From assembly GCA_964035545.1 (NCBI GenBank), contig OZ037767.1, positions 14,224,801 through 14,288,800 of the forward strand: a stretch of 64,000 bases of DNA, written 5' to 3'. Source of the DNA: Bugula neritina (lineage: Eukaryota; Bryozoa; Gymnolaemata; Cheilostomatida; Bugulidae). Below are positions 12,294-52,010 of this stretch, piece after piece. The position numbers and the translations under genes are program-made. Below the pieces are notes generated by a model that was not told the origin of the DNA, did no database searches, and saw only the letters and a list, made by a program, of their open reading frames with translations. Positions within the stretch are counted from its first letter, which is position 1; every line of letters starts with the position of its first letter.

Positions 12294-15200
12294 CTATTCA
12301 TTTTTTACAATCTGATTGGCTGAAGTCCAGAAGAAATCATCTAGATACTGACTACTGTTATTATAGAGAGCAGAGGAGAGTTCATCTTCAGAGGTTGAGT
12401 TAGGACTGTGAGCTAGCTGAGTCTCCCACTGATCTCTTACTAGTAGGTAGAGTTTCATCGTGTGGATGGCGTCTTCCACTGAGCAGTGACTTCCTTCCTG
12501 TATTCTCGAATCTACGAAGAGATGCAGCAGAGAGTTGGGTAGTCATGTCAACGCTTAGTTTGAGGGATAAACAGGGCAGTACTATAGTTATATTACCACT
12601 AGTACTACTTATACTACTAACACTAGTACTACTTATAATACTAACACTAGTACTATAGTTATGCTACCAATAGTACTAGTTATACTACTACTACTACTAG
12701 TACTATAGTACTACTATTAGTAGTACTAGTTAAACAACTACCATTGCTACTAGTTATACTACTATCTTTACTGCAGTTATACTACTATACATAGTACTGC
12801 AGTTATACCAGTACTACCACCAGTACTACCACTATCACTACAACTAACTTCACACAGTTATTATTACACTATTAACAAGACTAGCTATCAGTGCCGATAG
12901 TAAAAGACTCACTTAGTAAAACAGCCGAGAGTTTCTTCAGGCCAACTCTGCAAGTTCCAGGTCCACTGAGGCGAGACTTCTTCTTATACATATTACGGAG
13001 AATACGACATTGACCTATATCCCGGTACATCCCGGCAGGTGGGGCGTAGTCAATAACTTCAAAGTCGTTTCTTATCGTGTGACCAACCACTACCTTGTCC
13101 TACAGCATAGGTTATGAAACTAGGTGTGTGACGGTAAGAGTATTGTATGGCAACAGTATTGCATGGTAACGGTATTGTATGATAAAAATTGACATAGTAT
13201 TGTATGGCAACAGTTGACATAGTATTGTATGGTAACAGTTGACATAGTATTGTATGATAACAGTATTGCATGGTAACAGTTGACATTGTATAGTAACAGT
13301 TGACAGAAAGTATTATAATGTAAAAGCACAAGTTGATGATATGAAGGCATTTAAAGCTAAACAGAAAAAAAGAAAGTTTTATGGCTTGAACCAGTGCAAA
13401 CAGTGGAGAAAAGATGATGAAATTAGAAACTCATAAAAATGCATGACTCACACACCTTCAGTATGGAGACAATTTTAGCTTTAGCTTCATCACTTGAGAT
13501 TGCCCCTTTCAGTTTAGATTTAGTGATTCCACTATATTTAGTTCTGTAATCCGCCACTGGTCTGTCAGGTTTCACAAAGACATCTAGCAAGACATTGAGC
13601 TCTGCATCCACTATACTACAGCGTGCTACAATGTAGACTCTGATGATTATAGATAACAGTAGAGACAAGAAATAAAACAGGAGCTACAGATTAGAGATGC
13701 AGACGTATTTACTGAATGAGAAGATAACTCTAATATAGGAGCATAGAATGAGTATAAAACCAAGTCTGCTAGGGGCGAATAAACTAAATGATATAATATA
13801 ATATATAAAATTATATTTAGTAATAAACATAATTATAAGATTATATATGATACTACATATGATCTATTGAATATTATAGACAATATGCAATACAATAAAA
13901 TAATAATATAGGCCTATAATATAATATTATAGCACTTAGTTCTATGTATGCTATTATATACAATATTTCACATAAAATTGTTGCAGTATTATATAAGAAG
14001 CAGGGAGGAGCCGTGGTCTAGGGGTTAGAGCGTTTACCTAGTAAACACGAGGTCATGGGTTCGAGCCCAGACAAAGGCCATTAGTGATGTTAAGAACTCT
14101 TTAAAAAACATTTCGATCAGTAGTTCTCATAGGGATAGTGACTATAAACCCATGAGATTATATTAGAATGATATTTTAGATAATAAAAATCGTGAAAAAT
14201 ATATTATAACACTTTTATATATAATATAATAGGAAAATAACAACTGCAATACACACAAGTTAGTACAAAGCTGAAAGGTAATCTAGTAAAATGTGAAAAC
14301 AAAAGATTAATTTGATAAAACTCAAGATGAAAAAAATCAAAACAATTGGTAAAAATAGTAGAATATTTAACATTATTTATAAAAATGCTTTTGGTCTTGC
14401 AGTTTAAAAATAAAATTTAAAAATCATATATTTTCAACTGGCACTAGTTTATAGTCGCTATCCCTGTGAGAACCCCTGATGAGGAGGGTTAAGGTAGGCT
14501 AAAGACGTATTTATATCTGGAACAGGAGCAATTATGACTGAATGCTCTTCCTAACATCACCAATGGCCTTTGTCAGGGCTTGAACCCATGACTTCGTGTT
14601 TACTAAGCCAGTGCTTTAACTCCTAGACTATGGCTGCTCCTTACTTTGTATTTTTAACAAGAGCTAATAAAGCAAAATTGCCACAAAAATTACAGGAGTT
14701 ATCTTACCTAGCACGCTGATCATCTTAGGTTTCCCTTTGACATTCATCTGTTTATAATCTATTACACCAACCATCTCACAGTCTATTGCCACATATTGAC
14801 TTAGATCAGATAAATTCTTCACAACTTCTCCATCAGTCACTTTAAGATTATCACTGGTGGGTTGTCTACAGTCACTGAGAGAGTCACTGACAGTGCTGGA
14901 GTGACTAACAGTGCCAGTACAACTCTCTGTATCACAACTGAGTTTCACTAAATTACTATCACTGTGTATAGAAGTAGCACCATTAATTATAGTGTTACTG
15001 TGAACGTTAGTACTAGATGAGGTAATATTAGATTCACTATATGGAGAGGTGTGTCCAACATTGTGAGTGGACGTGGCTACACAAACAGGCCCTGCAGGAG
15101 TGGTTATGGGTGTGTCATTAGTGCTGACTGTGTGACTAGTGACACTATTACTGTGATTGAGTAATGGTAACACTTGTGTTGAGTCTTGACCATTTGTAGA

Positions 15201-17604
15201 GTAAACAGCTTTCTTGAAAATCTAGAAAAATATTTTCCATCAAAATTATAATTATTTTGGGGATCAAAAACAATAAATCTTGTTAGAAAAAGCCTGCACT
15301 GGCACAAGTCTTAGTCAAAATAGAAATAACAAAGTTTATATTATTTAGCTTGGAATGTTATATAATTTCCCCTAGGCTTGAAACTTTTCTATGACAAAAT
15401 CAACTTACTATAATGTGTCTGACAGACTACAGTCGAAACTCAACTGTGAACATTTTCTAGGCTAAGCGTTGAACTTTGTGACATCCCAACTGTCTGACTT
15501 CTGAACGCAACCGCCAATTTTTTTCGTTCAGCGATCAGCCAATCAATGACTGGCAGGTAAGCCCTGATTGGTCAAGTACTTTTACTTATTCCACATGCTA
15601 CTAGGCAGCATTATTATTTGATTTGGTTTTTCGAAAACCATATTATTTCACTTAATAATATTACAGGACGACACCGCTGGAATCTGTGTCAACCAATCAG
15701 GGTCGACCACTCATTTACAAGTAACACAGAGTCAGTCTTGGACAGTATTAGAGGATAACTGTATGTAATCGCTTCAACTCTTAGTATATTTTTCACTCTT
15801 ACAGTTTATATTTTTATTCGTGTGTAGTTAATGAAATACAGTTCTCCCGTTTCCATGATCAACTTGTTTGGTTCTTCACATAACCTCACAGCGGATATGC
15901 AGTAATTACTAGCACGCAATAACACCCGATCTAGTAGTACATAAAACTACAACAATATTTAGTTCTTTATGCTAGTGAATGTGATTGAATAAAGCTAGTA
16001 AATCTCATTTGATGAAGCTAGTAATTTTGATTAGTTGAAGCCAGTAGATTAGAATAAAAATAACTAGTAAATCTTATTGAATTATGGTAATAAATCTCAA
16101 TAAATTTCGCTAAATTTGATTTTTGGCTGCTGTGGATACAGCAGAAACTAAGCTACGGCATTGCTATTGGTTAAAAGTTTACTCCGGGGCTAGAGACAGT
16201 TGGCATTCAATGTTTGTAGTGTGACCAGGAAAAATTAGAACACGACATGCGCCGAGCAGCTCCAAAAACGCATTCATAGTCCAGTTTCGACCGTAGTCTG
16301 TCGACCCCATAAGATGCCACACAATATAGAAATTTATGCAGAGTATAACTTTGAAAGTTAGACAAAATAAGTGAGCATTGAGAAGATAATTCCTAGTCGT
16401 ATAGAATAAACTGTCACACTGAACATAGCTATGAATACAGGAGAGGAATGTGGCACTCACAGACTGAATGTGTGTTATGGCAGCGTGACAACTACGGCAG
16501 CCGATATTAGACAAGTAGGCACACTGACAGTCTACAGGGTATTTGCTAGCCTCAGCTACATCCTCTTCCAGACCCGACTTCGAGTCTACATTAATATACA
16601 ACGTAGTTAATGCTAGTTGGCAGGAATTTAGGCTACACAGAATCTACATTACTAAACTATCCACGTGACAGCCCTTTTATACCAGAGGTTCTCATAGGAA
16701 TGGTGGCTATACACTTGCGTAAGTTTTTTATATCATAACATAACGGCATAGTATAATAAAATATTACATAAGAATAAAATACTATAGCCTAATATATAAT
16801 ATAATAATAGATTGTAACAAAGTATTATAATATGACAGACTATTTTAGTCGATGATCAAATAATCAACTTACAAATATTAACAAATACTCCCATCTTGAT
16901 AGCAAAGGCAGCACATATCTGGCAGTTGTCAGCGTCAAGTTCCCCACAATCGCACACCTCGTCAGCAAACACTAGAACATCTTCCTGACTAGTGTCTGCT
17001 GGCTGGGCACTTGCTTTGCTATATATCTCTGTGTCGGAGAGGGCCAAACGCTTCCCAAACAATCTACAGCCATTTGAGAGAACTGGCTATAGGTTAAAGA
17101 TATACTTCATTTATACAGTAATAAACATTGATGTATATCACCATTACCTCGATAATTGACACAGTTATGGTGAGAAACACTCGTATAATCTTGACACTCT
17201 GCAGAATGTTTGAAAGTTGTATGCTTAAACATTTTTGCTTTAAATTTTTTTGGCACTCATGCTGATGACGTTTTCGTTGGATTCTGTGGTATAAAATTAT
17301 TCGTAATTATTGCATGCTATTATCAGTTGCCGCAAGACACAGCTGAATCACTGAGCTAATTTGAAAGTTAAAACTTAGAATTTATTTACAGAAATGTTCA
17401 CAGATAGATGGATTGCAGCTGCTTATAATTTGATAACTGGAGAAAATGTGTACAGCACTCTCACCTGTGTATTTTCCTGGCAATCTTTGCACATACATCA
17501 CAGTTACTTGGGGAAATCACTGAACATTCACACATAGATATTTTGCGTTTCTTTCCTAACTTTGTGGAATGTTGACTGCTAATAGATCGTTTCACACCTT
17601 TCAT
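12294..17604 (-). CDS. AEN/ISG20-type DEDDh 3'-5' exonuclease with N-terminal triple CxC-x7-CxxC modules (580 aa)
   Basis: Eight minus-strand exons join in frame (1743 nt): 17465-17604, 17148-17283, 16873-17086, 16461-16612, 14708-15221, 13456-13637, 12913-13099 and 12294-12511. The C-terminal domain (about residues 355-560) has all DEDDh residues: AIDCEMVG (Asp361, Glu363), HTIRNDF (Asp458) and SHCSVEDA (His517, Asp522). ARCSIVDAE and VADYRTKYSGIT are typical of the AEN/ISG20/REXO4 group, which degrades RNA or DNA 3'-5' in the nucleus or nucleolus. The tail YLDDFFW resembles that of AEN. Upstream are a Ser/Thr-rich linker (about 230-350) and three C-x-C-x7-C-x2-C modules at residues 25-38, 137-150 and 192-205; a basic patch GKKRK (17-21) may be a nuclear signal. 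The modules are not part of the AEN proteins I know. Junction phases support one gene, but two adjacent genes cannot be fully excluded. A 5' fragment is duplicated at 38590-40294. Confidence 0.8.
12588..12860. repeat. Trinucleotide-rich repeat (act/agt)n
   Basis: Imperfect tandem array of tactactagtactatagtta-like words in the last intron of the exonuclease gene. It is palindromic in character (tactagta), like the larger arrays at 19368-19975 and 42050-42460. Confidence 0.8.
13130..13312. repeat. Minisatellite, unit about 25 bp
   Basis: Repeats of tattgtatggtaacagttg followed by acatag in an intron of the exonuclease gene. Overlapping minus-strand open frames rich in Tyr, His and Cys here are products of the repeat. 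Confidence 0.8.
14005..14147 (+). mobile_element. tRNA-derived SINE copy
   Basis: Starts gaggagccgtggtctagggg, contains the box B-like gggttcgagccc and ends with ctcatagggatagtgactat. It is the opposite-strand partner of the copy at 14448-14640, and both lie in one intron of the exonuclease gene. Confidence 0.75.
14448..14640 (-). mobile_element. tRNA-derived SINE copy (longest in window)
   Basis: On the minus strand: head ggagcagccatagtctagga, box B-like gggttcaagccc, a body containing the reverse complement of tgactgaatgctcttcctaa, and a tail ending near tagcgactataaac. It is the fullest of three related copies. Confidence 0.75.
15421..16302. mobile_element. 882-bp TIR element inserted only in copy A
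   Basis: The left end gacagactacagtcgaaact is matched in reverse complement by the right end agtttcgaccgtagtctgtc. The corresponding place in copy B (about 38990-39040) lacks this sequence. No transposase-like frame is seen inside, so it is non-autonomous. It lies in the intron between exons 16461-16612 and 14708-15221. Confidence 0.8.
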
Positions 17605-18600: not shown

Positions 18601-19367
18601 TCAATAATAATGATTTAATTACAATATAATACAATACTAATTTTACTTTATAGTAACTTGAGCTAGTTAGTAACAAAGATAAACTGAAAGTAATTGTTAT
18701 GTTGGTACTATTTCAGTATCTATAATTCCGATTTTATCTATGGTTATTCACTATTCAGTATGACTATGAGTATCAGTATGAGTATTTCTACGATCATCTT
18801 AATCAGAGTTGGACGCACGTTATCAATAGCTCCAAAATCCATAACCGTGAAGCTGCTATTTGTCTAGAGAAAACATCGGGGCCTAACACGTACCAATCAG
18901 AAATTGAAAGCAGTTATTTCAAGAGCTTCTGCTAGGTCAACTGTCAACCGGATAATAAAATTTTGAATGTCAACAGCTCAATTTAATTCTTGGCTGTTAC
19001 GTTTCCGTCGCAGTGCCATCAACTGATAGTGATAGTGATACAGCTACTCGAAATTACCATTGCCATTGGTATTAGTGCATTACATTTGCTGAGTACATTT
19101 GCCATGAATATTGAGTTTACACATCAAACGCAGTCAGTTTATGGTGATATTTTCTATGGTGTTTGGTGCAGTTAACTGATTGATATGTGATATGTATCAC
19201 TGTCACTGTCAGTGTCAGTATGAGACTGAGTATCAGTAACACGAACAACTTGAACTTGAACTACACCTCAGTCTGACTCTGATTCTGAGTCTTTCATGTA
19301 TAATGATAATATTAATAATCAAAATGTATTGTTTATTAGTAACAGTAGTGAGTAGACTTAGTACTAG

Positions 19368-19975
19368 TCAGCAGTACTACTATTACTACTACTGCTGCTG
19401 CTGCCGCCGGCGCCGCTGCTACTAATGGTAATACTAATAGCAGTAGCAGTAGACGTAGTAGTAATAACAGTAGTAGCAGTAGCAGCAGTAGTAGTAGTAG
19501 CAGTAGTAGTAGCACTAGCAGTAGCAGTACTAGTAGCAGTAGTAGTACTAGTAGCAGTAGTAGTACTAGTAGCATTAGCAGTAGTAGTAGCGCTAGCAGT
19601 AGTAGTAGCAGCAGTAGCCTAGACCTTAACAGTAGTTTTAATACTAGCAGTAGTAGTAGCACTACTAGCAGTAGTACTATTAGTAGTAGTAGTAGTACTA
19701 GTAATAGTAGTAGTACTAGTAATAGTAGTAGTACTAGTAATAGTAGTAGTACTAGTAATAGTAGTAGTACTAGTAATAGTAGTAGTACTAGTAATAGTAG
19801 TAGTACTAGTAATAGTAGTAGTACTAGTAATAGTAGTAGTACTAGTAATAGTAGTAGTACTAGTAATAGTAGTAGTACTAGTAATAGTAGTAGTACTAGT
19901 AATAGTAGTAGTACTAGTAATAGTAGTGGTAGTACTAGTAATAGTAGTGGTAGTACTAGTAGTAGTACTACTAGT
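19368..19975. repeat. Triplet-based array with 18-bp higher-order unit
   Basis: Starts as (agt/act)n and becomes a regular tandem array of the 18-bp unit actagtaatagtagtagt from about 19695 to 19930. The 214-codon minus-strand open frame across it is nearly all Leu and Val and is an artefact. The copy B counterpart (42050-42460) is shorter and lacks the regular 18-bp phase, so the higher-order array expanded after the duplication or was lost in B. Confidence 0.9.
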
Positions 19976-20246
19976 GGCAATAATGATTATGATAAAATTG
20001 ATATTATAATTATATGAATAATAATTTAAATAATTACAGTGATAGTATTATTATAATATTACTCACAGTAGTATAAATATTTAATTTTATATTAGTTGAT
20101 AAAAAGTTATACTTACCAGTTCAGTTATTGATTTATTTCTCAGTCAGCGAGTTGATGATTAGATAACTAACCTCATTGTTTGTTGGATTAATTTTATTTT
20201 GTTTTGACTTGTTTTAGGTCAAAAGTTTATGAAGCTTGGTTGATAT

Positions 20247-26071
<5,825 letters not shown>

Positions 26072-26284
26072 AAGGGTCGTCACATTAGGAACAGTTCTTG
26101 TATAGCTGTCACTTTTGAATTTTGACATGTGATAGCTTTTAGGAGTTGTATCTCTAAAAAAATATTTTTACATTTTGTAGAATAAGTTTGTATTTTTAGT
26201 TTGTAATTATTGTATATATTGTAAAAAATCGGTTAGAGCTTCAATATGGGAGTTTATTCTGTAAATAGTTAGTTTTAGGGTATT

Positions 26285-26425
26285 AAATTAGGGATGTTAT
26301 TATATATATATATTTATATATATATATATAATATAATATATATATAATATATATAATATATATTTTATTTTCTCAATATACATATATATATATATATATA
26401 TTTATTTATATATATAAAGCCGGAT
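26285..26425. repeat. (TA)n low-complexity tract
   Basis: Nearly pure tatata sequence in the convergent intergenic region after taspase-1 A. Absent from the matching region of copy B. Confidence 0.85.
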
Positions 26426-26896: not shown

Positions 26897-27405
26897 TTAT
26901 TCCCTGTATATTTCATCCAGTGTTTGTCGTGTTGCCTCATCTCTCTCCTCCATATCTGGTGTTCGCCCATTGTAGTCAGTAACACCCAAATACCTTGCCA
27001 GGTCTCTGTAGTCATCCTCTGTGAAAGCTTCCACGGTGCAGAATATTGGAAATTCTGTCAAACTCTGTAAATCTTTTTTATTTTCATGGTAAGGCTTAAC
27101 TGCCTTAATAATCAACTCGAAGCTGTAGTCTTCAGCAAACTTTTTCAAAGCTCTAACACAATTTTTTTCTTGAGCACCACACGGTGCAAAGGTAAGATAT
27201 ATGTTTAAGTTCACCAGGCTGACACCTTTTTTATATCTGTCCTCATAATAAGCCGCTTCATAAGCCTCCACAAATTTCTGCTCTGCATGTGACTCCTCAT
27301 CACTTTTAAACAACCTACTTTGATCTTCGTCATCAGAGTTGTAAACAAATAGATATCTTGGATATGGCGGAGTAATCTCCCCTTTATAGATTTTCCAAGC
27401 ACTCC
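26897..27405 (-). other. Deaminase domain A3, zinc site intact
   Basis: Terminal exon beginning in phase 1 and ending with TAA. SHAEQKF and FAPCGAQEKNC are intact, followed by CTVEAFTEDDYRDLARYLGV. Predicted active. The upstream open frame that adds MFIIFLTYLV is intron sequence before the CTTGTAG acceptor and not a signal peptide. Confidence 0.85.
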
Positions 27406-28872
27406 CTACAAGATACGTTAAGAATATAATGAACAACGAATTAACAATAAATATATTATTTACTACCTATAGCAGGAAATTTTTTTTTGAGATCATAGTA
27501 ACTTTAATATCTACATTGGATAGTATTTTATTTAGTTATAGCTACTCACTATACTGTACTTTTCTCAGCTTTCCTTCTGTTTTTTTATCTCCCTTTACTA
27601 TAGTAGCTTTTGGAATTAATGGAAAGCGCAAGCATCTTGCGAGGTTGAGGTAGTCTTGCTTTCTGAAAGATCTGACAGTGCAGTATCCAGATGCCATCAA
27701 ATCACACAATTCTTCTTCATTCACCAATTCATGTCGCTCTTCTTCCATTTCACTGCAAGCCCCAACTACTATATTCAACTGAAAACTGTATTCTTCTGCA
27801 AAAGCTTTCAGCAGACCAGCACAATTTATTGGATGGGTAAGATACACGTCCAACTTTACTTGTTTGCCCCCTGCTTTATATCTTTCCTTATTATCCTCTT
27901 TAAAATTCTCCATAAATTTCTGCTCTGCATGTGAATTCCCACCACTTGTAAAAAGCCTACCTCCACCCTCAGCACCACGACGGTGTACAAATAAGTATGT
28001 TCGAAATGACGGAATATAGTTATCTGTAAAGACCTTCCAAGCACTCTCTACAAGAAATATCGATCCAAACTTGTGTAAAATTAATTTAGATCAATATAAC
28101 ATTTGCTATGGTAGGTTGGCAATTATTTTAAACTAGTCACTTTAATATCTGCGTTGCATATTTATACAGCCATACTCACCATACAGTATTTTTTCGAGAT
28201 GGAGTCGTGTCTCCTCATCTCTATCCTTCATATCCTGTGTGTACTCCCAATCTTCTTCAATACCCAAATACTGTGTTAGGTCTATGTAGTCCTGCTCTGT
28301 GAAAGCTTCCACAGTGCAGTATCGAGATGTCATCAAGTAACACAATTCTTCTATATTTTGATAGTAAGGTGCAGCTGCTTTAATATTCAACTCAAAGTTG
28401 TAGTCTTTAGCAAATGCTCTCAACTTCGTAGCACAACTCTTTCCTCGAGCACCACACGGAGCATAGGTAAGATACATATCCAACTTTACTCGTTCACTTA
28501 ATGCATTCTGATATCTATTGGCATACTCGTTTCCATAAGCATTCATGAAGTTCTCCTCTGCATGTAACCCCGTAGCATTTTGAAATAACCTGTTTTGATT
28601 CTCGGCATCAGGGCGGTGTACAAGTAAGAAGGTCCTAGCCCGATAATAGTTGTTATAGCCCATGTTTTTATAATCAGACCTGACATTATCTAAAAATTAT
28701 TTAGACAAGTGTAAAATGAAATAATTAATATTCTTAAGAAATTCTTAGCAAAGTTGAAAATTAGTCACTTCAATATCTACATAATAATATTTGTATGTAG
28801 TCATATATATATATACTCACCAAGCACTCTACTATCTGTTAATGGTAAAGGAATTTCTGGTTGATTCTGCAT
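26897..28872 (-). CDS. Three-domain AID/APOBEC-like cytidine deaminase, copy A (522 aa)
   Basis: Four minus-strand exons join in frame (1569 nt): 28821-28872 (start, MQNQPEIPLPLTDSRVL), 28180-28689 (domain 1), 27550-28047 (domain 2) and 26897-27405 (domain 3, TAA stop). Every junction is phase 1, introns between domains are only 132-144 nt, and all use GTGAGT donors. Each domain follows the plan: strand with YLFVH or FLLVH, H-A-E helix, strand VKLDMYLT, P-C-x6-C helix, strand FELNIKA, then CTVEAFTEQDYIDL. This order, and the late F-x3-DY-x5-Y block matching the TF-KDYF-type segment of AID, place it with AID/APOBEC-like deaminases. Zinc sites: domain 1 intact (His60, Glu62, Cys96, Cys103); domain 2 keeps HAE (227-229) but has THPINC instead of PC-x6-C; domain 3 intact (His393, Glu395, Cys429, Cys436). 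No signal peptide or membrane segment, so probably cytosolic or nuclear. The substrate (DNA or RNA, self or foreign) cannot be read from sequence; similar invertebrate proteins are thought to act in immunity. Confidence 0.85.
27550..28047 (-). other. Deaminase domain A2, zinc-binding cysteines lost
   Basis: Single phase 1-1 exon of 498 nt. HAEQKF is kept, but the second half of the site reads YLTHPINCAGLL, so the paired cysteines are gone. The later YCTVRSF and DYLNLA blocks are conserved. Predicted inactive; it could have a structural or nucleic-acid-binding role. Confidence 0.85.
28180..28689 (-). other. Deaminase domain A1, zinc site intact
   Basis: Single phase 1-1 exon of 510 nt. H-A-E in GLHAEENF and P-C-x6-C in APCGARGKSC are present, followed by YCTVEAFTEQDYIDL and the C-terminal RDEETRLHLEKIL helix. 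Predicted catalytically competent. Confidence 0.85.
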
Positions 28873-40294: not shown

Positions 40295-42049
40295 TTCAAT
40301 TTCATTTCACTTTACTATCCTGCGTAGGCTAGTGTATACAAGAAACTATGAGGTTTAAATATGAATAAAACAAACAGTTACAAATACAAGCTTATGTTTG
40401 TATAATACTAAAAGCCATGATCATGATGACTAGCTTTCTACATAAAGTTACAAAGAGAATCACTTGTTAAACTATTATTAGTATTACAATATCTAAAACA
40501 AAAGTTGGAATTTTATATATAATTATAACTAGAGGTGAAACAGAACATGGCATAACTATAAGTATTACTGATTCTAAAGCTACATCAACACTATGTCTAG
40601 CTCTAAGTCTAGACTATAGTGAAACTGCATAATAATAAAATTGGAACCATGCAATCGACCAAGGCAGTTATAATAATAATTAATAATTATACACTGTGAG
40701 GCGTAATAATAATGCTAATCATAATGATAAGCAATATCATTACCAATATGAATATGAAATTGAATATCATAACCATTATGGTAATGGTGTTGACGATCGT
40801 AATCACTAATGATCATAATAATGATGAGAATCGATATTGTAATACTGAGTAATAGTAATTGATAATCACAATCTCAATACATCACATGTAATGCTCAATA
40901 AAATAATCAACTACATTTAATGATAATCTGAATTATAATTATCATGAAAAAAATAAATGTAAACAATAAAGTAAAAGTAGAATAAAAACGAAATGAAAAT
41001 CAAAATAGTTTTTACTAAATGAAAAGAGTGAAAGGAAAGTACCGATATTCAACTCTAGTATCTAATTCTAAAAGTAACTTTAACACTAACACTAACAGTA
41101 ACACTAATTCTAACGATAACACTAATACTAGTAATAGTAATACAGTGCTACTAACAGTAACTCTAACTCAGTAACTGTAAGTCAAAGTGTAAGACTAAGA
41201 GCAAGACTCATAAGAGTAAGTCAAAATGTAACCCCGAACTGTAGGACTTAGACTTACTGATGGTGATACTCATACTGATAGTCATAGTGATACTCTTACT
41301 CTTAGATCAATAATAATGATTATGATGTAATTACAGTACAATACAATACTAATTGTGCTTTATAGTAACGTAAGCTAGTTACTAACAAAGATAAACTGAA
41401 AGTACTTGTTATGTTGGTACTCTATCATTATCTATAATTCTGATTTTATCTATGGTTATTCACTATTCAGTATCAGTATGAGCATGAGTATTTCTACGAT
41501 CATCATCAGAGTTGGACGCACGTTATCAATACCTACAAAATCCATAACCATGAAGCTGCTATTTGTCTAAAAAAAACATCGGAGTCCAACTTGATCCGAT
41601 TGGAAATTGAAACGAGTGATTTCAGGAGCTTTTGCTAGGTCAACTGTCAACCGGACGATGGATTTTTGAATGCCAACAGCTCAATTTAATTCTTGGCTGT
41701 TACGTTTCCGCCGCAGTGCTATCAGCTGATAGTGATACAGCTACTCAAAATTACCATTGCCATTGGCATTGGTATTAGTGCATTACATTTGCTGAGTACA
41801 TTTGCCATGAATATTGAGCTTTTGCATCAAACGCAGTCAGTTTATGGTGATACTTTTTATAGTGTTTGATGCAGTTAACTGATTGATATGTGATATGTAT
41901 CACTGTCAGTATGAGTATCACTCTATCACTATCAGTATCAGTAACACGAACAACTTCAACTTGAACTACAACTCAGTCTGACTCTGAGTCTTGCATGTAT
42001 AATAATAATATTAATAATCAAAATGTATTGTTAATTAGTAACAGTAGTG

Positions 42050-42460
42050 AGTAGACTCAGTACTAGTCAGCAGTACTACTATTACTACTACTACTGCTGC
42101 TGCCGCCGCCCCTGCTAGTGCTACTACTAATACTCTAATAGCAGTAGCAGCAGTAGTAGTAGCAGTAGTAGTAGTACTAGTAGCGGTAGCAGTAGTAGTA
42201 GCACTAGCAGTAGTATTAGTACTAGCAGTAGTAATAGTACTACTAGTACTAGTAGTAGTAGTAATAGTACTACTAGTACTAGTAGTAGTACTACTACTAC
42301 TACTAGTACTAGTAGTAGCAGTAGTACTATTAGTACTAGTAGTAGTAGTAGTATTAGTACTACTACTAGTAGTAGTAGTAGTAATAGTACTAGTAGTAAT
42401 AGTAGTACTAGTAGTAGTAATAGTAGTACTAGTAGTAGTACTAGTAGTACTACTAATGGT
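42050..42460. repeat. Triplet array (agt/act)n, copy B
   Basis: Counterpart of 19368-19975, with irregular tactagtagtagtaatagta words and without the long regular 18-bp array. Confidence 0.85.
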
Positions 42461-42728
42461 AATAATGATTATGATAAAATTGATATTATGATTATATGAA
42501 TAATAATTTAAATAATTACAGTGATAGTATTATTATAATATTACTCACAGTAGTATAAATATTTAATTTTATATTAGTTATTAAAAAGTTATACTTACCA
42601 GTTCAGTAATTGATTTATTTTTCAATTAGCGAGTTGATGATTAGATAAGTAACCTCATTGCTTGTTGGATTAATTTTATTTTGTTTGGACTTGTTTTAGG
42701 TCAAAAGTTTATGAAGCTTGGTTGATAT

Positions 42729-45700
42729 ATGGGTTATTTACCTGTGGTATTAATTCATGCAGGTATAACTATACTCACTATAGGTAGCACTATAAAGTTG
42801 CAGTTACTTTGAATTTTAGAATCAATCAATTTTTCTAAATTTTCAGTAGCTGAAAATTATAAATAAATTCTTAGATATTATTAAGTCATTCTTGATGTCA
42901 AAATTTACTAACTTGCAGTGAATCGATTTCGCAGTAGTCACGGCTCAAAATAAATTGGCCATGCATTAATGACCTGCGAACTTTATATAATGTCTTCTTT
43001 ATAAACTGTGTGTATGATTTATACTGTGTTCACAAGTGCGGTCTGCATTGTACAGAAGTTAAGTTTGTTAGAATTTTCATATCCATTAGATGTTTTTAGA
43101 AGTTTGAGGTGCCATTGTCTTGTCACCTATTATTTCTATTAGCGTTTAGGTTTTGATATTACAAAGTTCAATAAACATGCAAAATTAATTGGAGTTTAGC
43201 TTGCAGAGTGTTATGTAGCCTGCTACATCTTTCCACTTTTCACAATATTCACTGGTATCTATAGTGCTATTTGTTATATGCATTATGCTTAGTTAGTATT
43301 TTATGTTTAAACAAACCTTTTTCTGCCAGTTTTTTTAACATTGAAATTATGTATTTAGGTGCAGGATATCATTCATTAGCAAAAGAAAACTCCTACATTC
43401 AATTATGCAATCTTTCATCCAAGACGGTTAGTAATCATCAATAAACTGATAGCTTAATGGTAAATTGTCGTTGTTCAACGATTTTGAAATAATAAATGCT
43501 GAACTCTACTGCAGCTTTTTGCAATTATTTCATTTATTTTCTGTATTATTCTTTTGCGATAAATGTGTTACTTTAAATTCAGAGAGAATGTTGCTGAGCT
43601 TTCTATTGAGATTATTTATATTAAATTTTCTTGGTCATAGGCTATGGAATTGCTGAAAGACGGGTCATCAGCGACAGAAGCTGCAGTTGCAGCCATGAAA
43701 GTTCTAGAAGATTCATCTCTTACTAACGCTGGTTCGTTCGATGTTCAATCTCTTTGTATCTGTGTGCTTTGCTACTAATTAGGTGTGTGCTTATTTTTCC
43801 TTAAATGCATCTTTTATTAACTTTTACCCATAATTCCTATCATCTTTTCAACTTCCTGATTTGAATAATTGTTACTTGGCAGTCTTATGTTGAGAATAAG
43901 AACCATGATAACAATAACTAGCAACAACATTTACACTAATAATAGTCAAGTACTTCATGTTTTCTTTTGATGTGTGAAAGTTTTCTTTCTGAAATTTTTA
44001 TTTCCATAATTTTTTTCCAAGTTTTAAATGTTATAAATCTTGAAACTGCTGATTTCTGGAAGCATCTACCTGCATATTTGGATTTTATAGCTTTTTATAA
44101 ACATGTTATTCTCACACACACACACTGCTACAGACCCGCACACACAATACACTCATGCGCACACACACACACACACGCACAGTACACTTTCACACACACG
44201 CACGCACTTGCGCACACGAAAAACACAGCCGTAACCGCTGTTGTATAATAGTCTACTAGTCAAGCACAGACACTCACACACAGGCACACACACAAATGCC
44301 AACACGAACACACACTGGCGCACACAAATACACATATACTCTTGCAAACACCCTCACGCACCCAACACACGCACACAACACACACAGCCACTGTTGTATA
44401 ATAGTCTACTAGTCAAGCTCATTTGTACCTACTTGGTGTGATTTATGTTCAGGATACGGATCTAGTCTGAGTATAGACGGGGATGTTGAGTGTGATGCCT
44501 CCATGATGACTAGCGACGGATACTTTGCTGCCGTGGCAGCGATGAGATGTGTATACAACCCTATAGTTGTTGTTCACAGGATATTAGATCTGCAACATCA
44601 TCCACCTAAAGATGGAAGAATACCACCCAGGTTGCTACAGTTTTGTTTTACTTGTTTTAATTGGTTGGTCTCGCTCGTAATTTTAACTTATACTAATCGT
44701 GGGATTAATGCAGGTGTATGACAACTCTTACATTCAGTTTTTTAAAACAATAGTACAGGAACTATTATTTGTGACACTAATTACAAAATACATAAATATA
44801 TATAAAATGTAGAAGTGCTCTGTTTTTCTTTCAATTGTTTCATATAGGTCAAATTAGTAACTGTGGAAATGTTTTATGTAAGTCAAAGTAGTAACTGTAT
44901 ACCTCAAGTTGATTGTGCTGCAATCATTAACTCTGATAATAAATTTGTTCATCTTCAATGATGGTTTCTGGGTTGTCTGAACTAAAAGCTCGGAATTCTT
45001 TTCAGCGTAATTATTTAATATAATTCTTCTAGTTTTCAGTTCAGTGAGATTTTAGTCTAAATTTTATCTTTCAATCACAAAATTACAGTTTCCTGGCGGG
45101 AGAAGGCGCCACAAGGTTTGCTGAAGAGCAGGGAATACCTCTGGTTGAGTCTACCACAATGGTGTCAGGTATTCTTTATATGTAACTGTCTCTGTAGGAA
45201 CTATTTATTCTTATCACCTGCTCCCTATGAGTTGTGTTTAAACTGTGTTTCCTAATCTAAATAGCGAAGCCATTTAATTCAATTTAAACAGATCAAACAC
45301 GCAAGTGTTAAGTTCTATGGATTTTTCTCTAAAGCTAGTTTGTAGAATCATTTAGTCTCAATCACCTGCTAGGGGTTGTCACTGTGATGGCTCACTGTTA
45401 GTATGATGTCATGCAACACCTTTATATGTACATGTCAACTCCTTGCTAAAACTCCACTTCATTGGCTAGCTCCGCCTCCTTATCATGCCTTCATACACCC
45501 TACTTATGATTAGATGTGAACATATTGGCTAATTGTACAATAATATCAAAAATTATATTCTATTAGATTAGGATTATGGTATTATTTATTATAATATTAC
45601 ATTAAATTAGTTTATACAAACACCTGTAGAAATCACATCATATCTTTGTAGTTGTAACTTTTCGTATTTAGAAAATGCCACAAAGAATTTCAACAAGTAC

Positions 45701-48396
45701 TCGAGGATAGTTCAGCAAAACAGAGGGACAAAACGCAAGATGGAAGCTGACACATCAGATGTTTCTTCTGTCAAACAGTCTGCTGACAATCAGCTGGTTA
45801 GTTGGTGGATGTTGTATTAAACTGTGGCTTAAACTGACATTTTTAGTTGCGTTTAAATCTCAAACTTATTTCTGACAGTAAATTTTTGATAGAAGTATGT
45901 TTGAACTAAACTTCAGAGACTAAAACTTCTTTTATTGAAATAGCAATTGGCAAAGTCTACTACTAGCAACTACTAAATAGCAATTGGTAACTACTAACTA
46001 GCAATTGGCAACTACTAATTAGCAACTGGCAAGTAGCAACTGAATCTAACTATTTTATTATACTTCCTACTAACAGCAACTTGTGTAGTCATTGTCATGT
46101 GAACTCCATCATTATTCTTTCACTGAGTAACACCTTTTATTGATCTCTCAGTTCTTCTGCTGTATTTTCAAATTCTAGACTGAATATTACAGGAAGAGAG
46201 CTCAGTTATGGACACTGTTGGTATCATCTGTATGGACAGAGAGGGAAACTTAGCCTGTGCTCAGTCCAGTGGAGGAATAGCTTTAAAACATAGTGGGAGG
46301 GTGGGCCAAGTAAGGTCTCGACTTTTCTATTACAGTTATATCTAGAGATATTTATGGTTCTTTAGGCTTTATGTTTCAAATCTTGGTAAATTAAACAATA
46401 TTTATTTTGTGTGTTTTGTCACTTTTACAATGAGAAATGTCTTCAGACTATTGTGTTGAATAATTGTTTTGATATTTTTCTGTTGTAATCTCTCAAATTC
46501 ATACCATCTCCTGTTCTCTAAACTATAAACTATTTTGGGATGCAGCAGCTTGCTTTATAAATTTGTCTAGTTGAAGTCGTCTTCTCCAACACTCTATACC
46601 ACTGCGTATCACTTTATACCACTCTAAATCACTATGTACTACTCTGTACTACTCTATATCACTGTGTACTACTCTATACCACTGTTTAGTACTCTATATT
46701 ATTCTACTTCTATCTAATCCAAAAAGTGCTGCCTTACCTCTACCTAAGAACTTTTCTACTCTGTATTCTTATAACTTGTAGGCAGCACTAGTTGGCTCTG
46801 GTTGCTGGGTGGAAAAGAATATCGCCGTGGCAACAACAGGTGAGCTTCCTGTGTGTCATAATATCAGTAGCAGGTGAGAGTGGACAGTGTCACAGCCTTG
46901 TTGTCATGTACAGAATATCACATGTGTATTGGTTTGTGAGACTTTGTAGCTTCTAGATAGTGTGTGATACTATCAATACATTGGTTATCATAACTAACTG
47001 AAATCTAATAACTATTATCTTGAGAACATTACAGTTAAATATAAGCCCTACCCCAGGAAGGTCACATCTAGATATAAGCACTGCTAGAGATATGCAGTGT
47101 TGTGATTACCCAGTAGCCCTGTGGTATAATTGGTTAGTGCTGGTAAGCCAGAGGTCTGTGGTTCGAGCCCCAGTATAGGCAATTATTTTACAGGATAGTT
47201 ACACTGTTACATATAAGCACCCTTGCCAACATGACTGGAGATCATTTTAAATCAGGAAGTTTCGAGAGACTTTTTTAACTTTGTAGTGAAAAAAATTTAA
47301 TGGGCAGTTTTCAATGGTAATAATTCTGTATTACGTATTCACAGTTTCCCTCCCAAATATTCAGCTTATTACTTTTTGTTGTAAAGTTGTCTAAAGTTTA
47401 GATTCTCTACCAGGTTGTGGTGAGCAGTTGATGAGAACTCTGCTGGCCAAGACTGTCTCTGATGACTTGCAGGCAGCGTCTGGCAGCTGCCAACCTGTAG
47501 ACGTGTTCAACCAGACAATGAAGTCTTCTTTCATTGGTTAGTGTGGCACTATTTGATTGGTTGATGCAGTAAGTTTTCAGTGTCACATCATTTGCCTGGC
47601 TAATAAAGTAAGTTTTTAGTGTTATGTGAGCTGATTGGCTGATGCAGTAAGTTTACAAAGTGTCATGCTATTTCATTGGCTGATAAAAAAAGTTTTAGAG
47701 TGTCGCACTATTTGATTGGTTGATGCAGTAGCTCCAGTTTTTCTCAACGCAGAACTATAAATTAGTCAAAACATTCTTGTTATGTTTATAGAGTAGCGAT
47801 TTTTTACAATGAGTTGATTTGTTGATCAATTATTTGATTTATTTATTGATAAATTGATTGATAAATAATTTCATTTTTAGCAATGCTAGAACTTTCTCAG
47901 CGATTTGTTATATGGGTCTTTAGAGTGAAGTTATAAAACACAAATATACTTTATACTGATTTACTATTAGTTGTGTGTAGTTTGGTATAATATTTTCACT
48001 GTTAATCTTCCTTTAGACAACCCTGTTCTGGTAAAAGATAAAGTGAAACTTGCTGGTGCTATTGTATTGTATGTGAATCCTGAATCTTCATCAGGTTTGT
48101 TACATACAATAATATCATATAATACTAGTATGCAGTGTAACATCATATAAGTTTATTGCAAATAGTGTTCTGTATTTCTGTTTAAAACTGTAAGTATAAC
48201 TTTTATTAGAAACTGGTTGTATTTTCTAGTTGAGTTAATGTGGAGCCATACTACTAAGAGTATGTGTGTGTCATATATGACAGCTGAGTGTGCCCACCCA
48301 CAGAGTTTAGTCACTAGACTGGCACCTGGCAAAGTGTCACAGGTGCCCTTCACCAGTGGTATCGGATTATGTTCTAATACACAAGCACCTGCTTAG
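42729..48396 (+). CDS. TASP1: Taspase-1, copy B, 372 aa
   Basis: Eleven exons of the same lengths and phases as copy A: 42729-42762, 43359-43426, 43641-43731, 44453-44630, 45089-45168, 45672-45796, 46193-46309, 46782-46839, 47414-47536, 48017-48094 and 48230-48396 (TAG). The frame is open throughout and the self-cleavage site MDTVG is kept at Asp199/Thr200. Differences from copy A are few, for example CAQSSGG for CALSSGG just after the nucleophile, VKDKVKL for VKDNVKL, and [10 protein letters not shown] for RLPPGKVSRV near the C-terminus. All splice sites hold a GT and an AG. Both copies may be functional; the Leu-to-Gln change is close to the active centre. It converges with deaminase gene B, 878 bp between stop codons. 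Confidence 0.93.
44114..44400. repeat. CA-rich region with a duplicated tgttgtataatagtctact segment
   Basis: Short (ca) runs in intron 3 of taspase-1 B. The segment gctgttgtataatagtctac followed by tagtcaagc occurs twice (about 44237-44265 and 44391-44417), but once in copy A, showing a small local duplication. Confidence 0.75.
46590..46700. repeat. Short tandem repeat (actctataccactgtgtact)
   Basis: About seven imperfect units of 14-15 bp in intron 7 of taspase-1 B. Copy A has only one or two units at 24370-24400. Confidence 0.75.
47112..47185 (+). mobile_element. tRNA-like SINE head in taspase-1 B intron 8
   Basis: Counterpart of 24812-24890, with gccctgtggtataattggtt and gtctgtggttcgagcccca. 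It looks better preserved than copy A. Confidence 0.6.
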
Positions 48397-49274
48397 ATGA
48401 GTCGTCACATTATCAACAGTTCTTGTATAGTTGTCACTTTTGAATGTTGACATGTGATAGCCTTTGGGAGTTATTGTCTCTCCAAACAATTTTCTTATAC
48501 ATTTTGTAGAAAATTGTGTATATTAATGTTGTAATTATTGTTAATATGCTGCGAAAAATTGGTTAGAAATTTAAAACGCGAGTTTACTTTGTAAATAATT
48601 ATTTTAGTGTCAGATTGTTTGTACATGTGTTCAGTTATTTGAATACAGAAGTACATAGTTTAGCTCTAATGAATACTATCAAAGTATGAGATCATCTATA
48701 AAAATCATGACACAACTTCATTTCTCTTTATTTTATTGTATCTGCATTATATAAAGACTTGCATGTAACTGTATCTAGTTTCATTTTACAGTTTTGCAAC
48801 AATATAATATAAAGTGCTACCATGTGTTGATAAGTTACAGATAAATGCTTATTCAAACACACATATTACAATAAATTACAATTCTACCATTTGACCTTCA
48901 CCTTGTCATAGTGTATCAGAAGCTTAGAAATTGAAGGTGCACACAACACAAATTTGCAATAAAATTTAAGCTAGCAGTTATCAGAAATAATTTTTATATT
49001 ATCTAATGATTTAGTCGCAAATGCAATAGCTGATCATACTTGAAAATAAAAAAAATGATTTCAATACAAAAAATATATAACAGTGGTTTAAAAAATGGTA
49101 AATTCGTAGAAGGTTATAAAATAGTACACAAAACTATTGATGTTAAACTCAATTTGGAGTTGTTCTAGATTAACTCAGATTATTTTCAGCTTTTGCCTTG
49201 ACTCTTGATCTCTTTCTGTAATAGCCTGTGCTCTCAGTCATCTAGCAGTTTGAAACTCTAGCGCTTTACAAGGT

Positions 49275-49633
49275 TTATGTAGTCGTTCTTTCTAAGCGCT
49301 TTTGCAGGGCAGACGTCATCAAATCTAATATTTTTTTATTTTCATCGCTAAGTGGGGGGACTATAAAAATCAACTTATAGTTTTTTCTTTTTGCAAACTT
49401 CTTTAGCTTCTCAGTAGAACTGTTTTCATGGGTAAGATACACATCCAACTGTACTGGTTCTCCTGTTTCATTTCCTCCCTGATTTTCAAACGCCGTCATA
49501 AATTTCTGCTCTACATCTGACTCTATATCACTTGTGAACAACTCATCTTGACTCTCGTTATCGTGGTGGTGTACAAATAAATATGTTCGAGCTGACTTAA
49601 ACCTGGTATCTGTAAAGACTTTCCTTGCAATCT
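49275..49633 (-). other. Deaminase domain B4, inactive and frameshifted
   Basis: SDVEQKF and YLTHENSSTEKL show loss of all zinc ligands. After DLMTS the frame changes: the family block is recovered in another frame as CPAKALRKNDYINLVKR before a TAG. The terminal domain is decaying. Confidence 0.8.
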
Positions 49634-52010
49634 CTGCAAGAAGTATCAATAGTAATTTGTAAAACAAAATTATAAATATACCATTTATTATGCTCAGCTT
49701 AAAAGATTTGAGATTAGTTGCTTCAATAGTTGCATTGAAGAATATTGTTGTGTATCTATGCTTCACTTGCAATCACTGGGTCTATTTATGCAAAGCTACT
49801 TCACCAGATTTATAATTATTAGGAGTTTATTCAATGTAATTTAGACACAAATAAAATGTACAACTAATATAAAAAATTACATAATAGAGAGATACAGTAC
49901 ACAAGACTTTACATTAGCATTATCGAGTCCTATCTGCCGGCTAGTCAATTAGACAAGCTTCCACTACAAGTATGCAGCTCCGCCTTCTACTAATTACTAT
50001 TAATCCCCCATTGGCTATTAAGGTGGCGCCATCGCACTAAGAGAATTGCATGATGCAAAATGCATCATGTCTTGAGTCATGTGTAAGGAGTTATCCTTTC
50101 GACATATCAATCTAAAAATCCCTACAATATTTTTATGTAGTCGTACTCACCATACTGTAGTTTTATCAGCTTTTTTTCAGTTTCCTCATCTCTCTTTTTC
50201 ATATCTGGTGTGTGCTCCCAGTTTTCTTCCAGAGTAACATCCAAGTACCTTGCAAGGTCTTTGTAGTCCTTCTCTGTGAATGCCTTCACAGAGCATTGTG
50301 AAAATGCCATCAAATCATATGATTTTCTTTCATCTTTATCGGGAAGTGTGGCGACTTTAATATGCAAGTTAGAGTTTTCTTCATTTGCAAAAGTTTTCAG
50401 ATCCTTTATTCCATGGGTAAGATACACATCTAAATTCACTAATTCATTTTCATCCTTTTTATAACTTGAGGCAAAGTTCTTCTCTGCAGAAAACACCCGA
50501 TAACTTTGAAACACCTCATTTTTCCTATTAACCCGGTTATGTACAAATAAATATGTTTGAGCAAATCGAGTTTTGGTGTCTGTAAAAACTTTCCAAACAC
50601 CCTCTACAAAAAATATCAAGAGTAATTTGTAAAGCAACATTATGAATATAGAATTTACTATGCCAGGTTAGCAAATTTGAGATTAGTTGCTTTAATATTT
50701 GCATTGAATAGTATTTGTATAGTCATACTCACGATATTGTACCTTTTTCAGCTTCTGTTTCGTTCCCTCGTCTCTCTTTTTCATATCTGATGTGTGCTTC
50801 CACTCTTCATCCAACTCAACATTCAAGTACTCTGCAAGGTCTCTGTAGTCCTTCTCTGTAAATGCCTCCACCGAGCAGTATAAAGATGCCATTAATTGCT
50901 GTAATTGTTCTTCATTTGGGTGGTTAAGCCCAACTGCTTTAATATCTAATTGAAAGTTGAAGTCTTCTGCAAAGGTTCTCAGCTGCCTAGCACAATTCAT
51001 TCTTTGAGCATCACATGGGGCAAAGGTAAGATACATGTCTAAACCTATACACGAGGATCTTGTTTGATATTTTTCCTGGTTTTTAAGAACTTCCATTAAG
51101 TTCTGTTCTGCAGTTAAAACCCCATTTTCAAAGATCATATTTTGGTTCTTCTCACCGGATTGGTGTACAACTAAAAATGTCTGAGGTGACTGAATGCTGG
51201 TGTCTGTAAAGGCATTCCAAACTCGTTCTGTAGGAAACAACAATGCAAGATAAAATAAAGAGTATAATATATACTATGGCAGGTAAACACACTTGAGATT
51301 ATTCACTTTAGTATCCACACTGAAAAATATTTGTATGTAGTCATACTCACCATTCTGTATTTTTCTCAGCTTGCCCCGTGTCTCATGATCTCTATCTATC
51401 ATATCTGGTGTCCGATCCCAGCCTCTTGGCAGTGGAAACCTCAAGTACTTTGCCAGGTCTATGTAGTCCTTTTTCCTGAAAGCTTTTACAGTGCAGTGTG
51501 GAGATGCCATCAATTTTCCTAATTCTTTTTTATTTTTCCAGTAAGGTCCAGCTGCTTTAATATTCAACTCGAAGTTATTATTTTCTGCAAATTCCCTTAG
51601 TTTTGTAGCACAATCTTTTCCTTTTTGTCCCCCAGTACCACATGGCGCAAAGGTAATATACATGTCCAGCTTTACCCGCTCACCTTCTGCTACATATCCT
51701 TTCTCCAAGAACTTTTCCTCTGCATGTACCCCATCAAAACTTTGAAACAACCTATTTTCATTCTTGCCATCAGGGTGGTGTACAAGTAAGTATGTTGTAT
51801 TTGTCTTATATGGTCCACTGTTGACGTTTTCATAGACAAACCAAACACTATCTATTGGAAATATTTAGAATATAATTTAAAGTGAACCTATTAATATGAC
51901 AGATCAAGAAATTTAAGTTAGTTTAATATCTGCATTAAATATTATGTTATGTAGCTATACTCACTAAATTCTTTTTGAGTCCACCAATCGTTTAGATCAA
52001 TTTCCGTCAT
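49275..52010 (-). CDS. Four-domain AID/APOBEC-like cytidine deaminase, copy B (617 aa)
   Basis: Five minus-strand exons join in frame (1854 nt): 51965-52010 (start, MTEIDLNDWWTQKEF), 51351-51851 (domain 1), 50733-51227 (domain 2), 50151-50603 (domain 3) and 49275-49633 (domain 4). All junctions are phase 1, as in copy A. Zinc sites: domain 1 intact (HAE at 58-60; APCGTGGQKGKDC, an unusually long C-x9-C); domain 2 has T-A-E for H-A-E but keeps APCDAQRMNC; domain 3 has S-A-E and THGIKDL with no cysteine pair; domain 4 has D-V-E and THENSS and is frameshifted near its end. Only domain 1 looks catalytic. There is no signal peptide. A protein with one active and several inactive deaminase domains recalls the double-domain APOBEC3 layout, by analogy only. 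The last intron (49634-50150) is longer than the others through a unique insert of about 350 bp. Confidence 0.83.
50151..50603 (-). other. Deaminase domain B3, inactive
   Basis: FSAEKNF replaces HAE, and YLTHGIKDLKTFA lacks both zinc cysteines; the domain is shorter (151 codons). CSVKAFTEKDYKDLARYL and WEHTPDMKKRDEET remain well conserved, which suggests selection on the fold in spite of the lost site. Confidence 0.83.
50733..51227 (-). other. Deaminase domain B2, zinc histidine replaced
   Basis: The helix reads LTAEQNL, so the zinc-ligand His is Thr, while Glu and APCDAQRMNC remain. CSVEAFTEKDYRDLAEYL follows. Probably inactive, with recent loss. Confidence 0.83.
51351..51851 (-). other. 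Deaminase domain B1, zinc site intact, long C-x9-C
   Basis: VHAEEKF and FAPCGTGGQKGKDC are present; compared with A1 three residues are added between the cysteines. The C-terminal CTVKAFRKKDYIDLAKYL and RDHETRGKLRKIQ blocks are conserved. Predicted active. Confidence 0.83.

Follow-up and report, generated by a model that had tools for sequence, protein, structure and literature searches.

Gene A and its paralogues

The genome of the bryozoan Bugula neritina contains a cluster of genes predicted to encode AID/APOBEC-like deaminases with up to four domains per protein. The gene at the centre of this analysis, gene A, lies on the minus strand at positions 28872-26897 of the window, that is, the whole 64,000-nucleotide (nt) stretch analysed (contig OZ037767.1, positions 14,224,801 to 14,288,800 of assembly GCA_964035545.1). 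It comprises a 52-nt start exon and, after it, one exon for each of three deaminase-fold domains (510, 498 and 509 nt). Exon 1 (28821..28872) provides the start ATG and 17 codons plus 1 nt, ending in phase 1; exon 2 (28180..28689) encodes domain 1, with HAE and PC-x6-C; exon 3 (27550..28047) encodes domain 2, with HAE, without PC...C and with an acidic-helical insert, CSEMEEERHEL; and exon 4 (26897..27405), which includes the stop codon, encodes domain 3, again with HAE and PC-x6-C. The introns (28690..28820, 131 nt; 28048..28179, 132 nt; 27406..27549, 144 nt) have GTGAGT donors and T-rich acceptors (TTTTTAG, TTGTAG and TTGTAG, respectively), and reading through them would bring in four, four and three in-frame stops. 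Splicing yields a predicted product of 522 amino acids. The coordinates given in a preliminary description of the locus proved exact when the gene was rebuilt from the DNA, and its short phase-1 start exon, phase-1 junctions flanking symmetric domain exons and single in-frame polypeptide were all recovered; its intron range of 132-144 nt fits both interdomain introns but not intron 1. The three domains are homologous to one another, domains 1 and 3 matching at 47% over 150 amino acids.

A search of the 216-Mb genome with gene A domain 1 recovered 11 domain exons, which lie within ~61 kb of a single contig; three further protein queries recovered the identical 11 and no others at the expectation-value (E) limit used. 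These exons form four gene models, all on the minus strand. Besides gene A, they are gene B (52010-49275 of the same window; four domains, 617 amino acids), gene C (just outside the window; three domains, 522 amino acids) and gene D (190 amino acids), in which the start exon is spliced straight to a single domain exon. Every intron in the four models (11/11) is in phase 1, and none of the 11 domain exons has an internal stop. The start ATG and ~50 nt upstream of it can be aligned in all four paralogues, with an in-frame TAG three codons before the ATG in A, C and D. The earlier suggestion that symmetric phase makes domain gain or loss frame-neutral is borne out by the paralogues, among which domain number varies in frame (1, 3, 3, 4).

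Family assignment and two kinds of domain

Structure-based comparison of gene A domains 1 and 2 revealed the helix-strand order of AID/APOBEC deaminases, with a helix between strands 4 and 5, and the fold checks run on these two domains support the AID/APOBEC-like fold proposed initially. Domain 1 scored above the Pfam cut-offs for NAD1, SNAD4 and APOBEC_N, and domain 3 above those for NAD1 (33.8 bits) and SNAD4 (29.6 bits; cut-offs 27). The three deaminase domains first described are borne out by domains 1 and 3, which have the full zinc motif, but not fully by domain 2, which has neither motif cysteine; the P-C-x-C motif first ascribed to them gives way to PC-x6-C in domains 1 and 3. The classical AID/APOBEC motif is described as H[AVS]E-x(24-36)-PCxxC (PMC5956068). 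Because the PC-x6-C of gene A domains 1 and 3 and the PC-x9-C of gene B domain 1 depart from PCxxC, the proteins are classed as AID/APOBEC-like deaminases in the wide sense (AADs) rather than as classical AID/APOBEC.

The best Pfam families were SNAD4 (PF18750), matched by 25/38 members, and NAD1 (PF18778), matched by 21/38 (E <= 0.01). The Pfam APOBEC3 model matched 11/38 members at the same threshold, and none of the three gene A domains exceeded its cut-off. SNADs are described as defined by a signal peptide, with SNAD4 previously from sponges only (PMC11004436), whereas the modelled N-terminus of gene A, MQNQPEIPLPLTDSRVLDNVRSDYKN, has no hydrophobic run, as judged by eye, that would serve as one. 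Inv-AAD (PF18785) was not assigned: it appears in precomputed annotations of three relatives (P0001, P0008 and P0009), yet was absent from the matches of the 38 members and from the genome. Applied to the genome, the NAD1 model found 1/11 domain exons and the Inv-AAD and APOBEC_N models none; the SNAD4 model found 0/11 and a single sub-threshold place (C4, L014 799-1377), where a frame with an HAE...PCIMC motif is presumably an ADAT2-like tRNA deaminase. Since the family models miss most of the known exons, divergent AADs elsewhere in the genome would be compatible with these searches.

Across the cluster, six of the 11 domains have both HAE and PC...C, and none of the four genes is without such a domain. 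Two domains have HAE only (A2 and C2), one has PC...C with TAE (B2) and two are without both the full HxE and PC...C (B3 and B4). Gene B, also on the minus strand, begins with a 46-nt exon (51965..52010) that contains the start ATG and ends in phase 1. Its exon 2 (51351..51851) encodes domain 1, with HAE and PC-x9-C, which exceeds the cut-offs for SNAD4 (38.0 bits), NAD1 (37.0), APOBEC2 (30.6) and APOBEC_N (28.8). Exon 3 (50733..51227) encodes domain 2, with TAE instead of HAE and with PC-x6-C; exon 4 (50151..50603) encodes domain 3, with SAE and without PC...C, which shares 60% identity over 186 amino acids with the B. neritina protein EB796_019083 (P0019). Exon 5 (49275..49633), after a 517-nt intron, encodes a truncated domain 4 (118 amino acids) with DVE and without PC...C. 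Domain 1 is thus the only one of the four with both HAE and PC...C.

Three protein searches returned 44 relatives, two from B. neritina (P0002 and P0019) and 42 from JGI metagenomes. These searches reach relatives that share five-residue words with the query and have 0.55-1.75 times its length, and within that reach no brachiopod proteins were returned. A virus origin gained no support: the IMG/VR search gave five pattern matches, none confirmed, and hence no relative. The tree covered 45 domain rows, 12/42 single-piece relatives being left out as shorter than 140 amino acids; in it, a supported branch (98/94) separates 15 rows, 0/15 with PC...C, from 30 rows, 30/30 with PC...C, including P0035 and P0036, in which the motif was missed by the script's pattern and read by eye. 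Two old kinds of domain, with and without PC...C, are thus evident in these sequences, the latter forming a branch of pseudo-domains; the tree is midpoint-rooted, and the order of PC...C presence and loss cannot be read from it. Gene A domains 1, 2 and 3 each pair with the same-numbered domain of gene C, and a middle domain with HAE only persists in A, C and five relatives. Domain-2-type modules of the relatives contain a charged helical insert whose length varies widely and exceeds 100 residues in P0021. In P0014, P0021 and P0023, charged repeat-like helical inserts stand where gene A has CSEMEEERHEL.

Probable recombination within the cluster

Between genes A and C (26897-28872 of the window and C3:14306876-14308839), identity is 96-99% in exon 2 and in introns 1 and 2 (99.2% for intron 2), and ~76-81% in exons 3 and 4 and the intron that separates them. 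The fall is sharp, from ~97% to ~80% at the start of exon 3, and a step at this exon edge is more readily explained by recombination or gene conversion than by divergence at a uniform rate. From this step, the two halves of gene A look as if they had separate histories. Mosaic structures also occur among the relatives. P0010 combines the front half of P0001 domain 1 with the back half of P0001 domain 2 (74/77 informative sites, one breakpoint) and looks like the expected remnant of unequal crossing-over between domains. P0003 is likewise a clear mosaic (64/71 informative sites), and P0007 a weak one (49/55 sites, permutation P = 0.049). The three cases were picked by eye, with P values uncorrected for picking, and metagenome assembly error could also produce mosaics of this type.

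The cluster sits in repeated segments that include a TASP1-like (threonine aspartase 1) gene, co-duplicated in tandem with the deaminase genes. TASP1-like copies lie at ~22000-26300 and ~44200-48600 of the window, with another beyond it, and the best PDB match of one copy is TASP1 (E = 4e-22). Long simple repeats at 19336-20047, 21508-22075 and 42035-42529 are open in several frames. On the minus strand at 14664-15221, a frame ending YVAIDCEMVGV resembles the start of what we take to be a DEDD exonuclease such as REXO4. No tRNA genes were found in the window, and no Rfam families in 20000-55000.

Proposed function and alternative readings

On balance, gene A probably encodes one intracellular AID/APOBEC-like protein of three domains, a zinc-motif, a pseudo and another zinc-motif domain in that order, belongs to a recombining cluster of phase-1 cassettes and likely acts in innate defence. 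The domains, their fold, the frame, the cluster and the pseudo-domain branch can be read from the sequence; a single mRNA, activity, substrate and a defence role are what we infer. Domains 1 and 3 would act as cytosine deaminases on single-stranded DNA or RNA, while domain 2, its zinc cysteines lost, would be a binding module for nucleic acid or partners that helps to position or assemble the enzyme, much as the weaker domain does in double-domain APOBEC3s. As one domain corresponds to one phase-1 exon cassette in a tandem cluster, recombination could add, drop or swap domains with the frame intact. Gene A's likely role would be defence against viruses or retroelements; the likeliest function, given the family, is to deaminate cytosine in single-stranded nucleic acid as a defence. 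More tentatively, and with greater doubt, the cluster might act as a germline deck of domains, in which zinc-motif and pseudo cassettes are exchanged among paralogues as well as inside domains. Individuals would then differ in their one- to four-domain mutators, and the arms race would be fought by altering how many deaminase modules, and which, make up one chain.

Several observations weigh against the proposal of a three-domain defence enzyme. Gene A domain 2 falls under all Pfam cut-offs (best SNAD4, 20.2 bits versus 27). The isoelectric points (pI) of proteins A, C and D lie on the acidic side (5.35, 5.43 and 4.97), which argues against strong nucleic-acid binding; gene A domain 2 (pI 8.75) and gene B domain 1 (pI 9.25) are basic, but gene C domain 2 is not (5.57). 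The ratio of non-synonymous to synonymous change (dN/dS) between A and C is 0.46, 0.59 and 0.92 for domains 1, 2 and 3, and the domain 3 value, near 1, would be expected equally under diversifying selection and relaxed constraint. In exon 4, 2-nt and 20-nt gaps between A and C alter the last few residues. The B. neritina model EB796_019083 reads a single-domain frame through both splice sites, and the splice model and single mRNA of gene A are themselves predictions from sequence alone.

The case for one mRNA carrying all gene A exons is good, if not proven. Extended upstream into the introns, the frames of gene A domains 2 and 3 contain no methionine; the first methionine of domain 2 is residue 45, downstream of HAE (residue 39), and the first of exon 4 is residue 151 of domain 3, with none before HAE. 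Starts within these exons would therefore not yield whole domains. The argument holds for gene A only, since domain 3 of genes B and C has a methionine in its upstream extension. An annotated B. neritina protein, P0002, joins two consecutive domains. AATAAA/ATTAAA words are present inside introns too and do not discriminate between single and alternative products. Instead of one fixed product, alternative splicing might join exon 1 to any domain or run of domains, giving mostly one- and two-domain products with the triple form a minor one. The uniform intron phase and the direct junction of the same start exon to one domain exon in gene D would suit such an arrangement, as would the mammalian read-through and splice variants described for single- and double-domain APOBEC3s (PMC2612020, PMC3495650). 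However, the models give every gene just a single start exon and a single last domain exon, and gene A domains 1 and 2 terminate in donors, without stops near the domain end, and we regard this alternative as unlikely.

Less probable again is that the proteins are non-enzymatic multi-domain decoys that bind nucleic acid or a virus protein, their zinc motifs retained by descent. The lack of HxE, PC...C or both in 5/11 cluster domains, the departure of PC-x6-C from PCxxC and the retention of the HAE-only middle domain in A, C and five relatives are consistent with this idea. Against it, 6/11 domains keep HAE and two cysteines, at least one per gene, and LaAIDL1 of the brachiopod Lingula anatina, a related protein with two tandem deaminase domains, is described as a mutator of DNA in Escherichia coli (PMC5956068).

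Decay of a tandem repeat, with the exons as relics without a product, is very unlikely. The truncated gene B domain 4 behind its 517-nt intron and the dN/dS of domain 3 would accord with it, but although exons 3 and 4 of A and C have diverged by ~20% at the nucleotide level, no cluster domain exon has acquired an internal stop; under simulated neutral change the chance of this was 0.014-0.029 per domain (0.022 for domain 2 and 0.014 for domain 3). Every gap within exons 2 and 3 has a length divisible by three. Less likely still is a secreted SNAD4-like deaminase, in which the reading frame of a domain exon would extend back into the intron and hydrophobic residues there would serve as a signal peptide: open frames do enter hydrophobic stretches upstream of the acceptors, with a methionine there for domain 3 of B and C, SNAD4 is among the two best Pfam families and EB796_019083 is annotated in that way, but each such stretch is the pyrimidine tract of a consensus acceptor, a methionine is missing there for domains 2 and 3 of gene A, and modelled exon 1, judged by eye, encodes no hydrophobic run.

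Among known systems, LaAIDL1 resembles gene A as a lophotrochozoan, invertebrate AID/APOBEC-like protein with tandem deaminase domains, but is described as having two domains, against the three or four of genes A, B and C. APOBEC3s provide the closest folds to domains 1 and 2, and share tandem domains of unequal activity and a domain-per-exon layout, the conserved part of the Z domain being described as encoded on a single exon with a modular domain history (PMC2612020); they differ in being mammalian and in cysteine spacing, and no APOBEC3 half that lacks zinc cysteines is mentioned in the available text of PMC2612020 and PMC5995163. Several gene copies also characterize invertebrate AADs such as sea urchin SpAIDL (PMC5956068), but these are single-domain proteins of 193-194 amino acids with PCxxC. 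The preliminary description had called a triple-domain protein unusual, with APOBEC3 reaching at most two; all APOBEC3 proteins are indeed described as having one or two domains (PMC5995163), but LaAIDL1 makes tandem domains in an invertebrate less of a novelty. No report of a bryozoan AAD, or of a protein with at least three AID/APOBEC domains, was found among the matches listed from the open-licence literature, and the cluster would add a phylum to the range of these enzymes.

This bryozoan appears to have genes with three or four modules per protein that mix working and apparently dead ones. If so, chains of three or four would show that the two-domain plan is no upper limit, and a lasting class of modules without zinc cysteines would show that non-catalytic modules are retained in their own right. 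With their common start exon, the paralogues of one, three and four domains would form a natural series for testing how extra domains affect processivity, the choice of substrate and the ability to evade viral antagonists.
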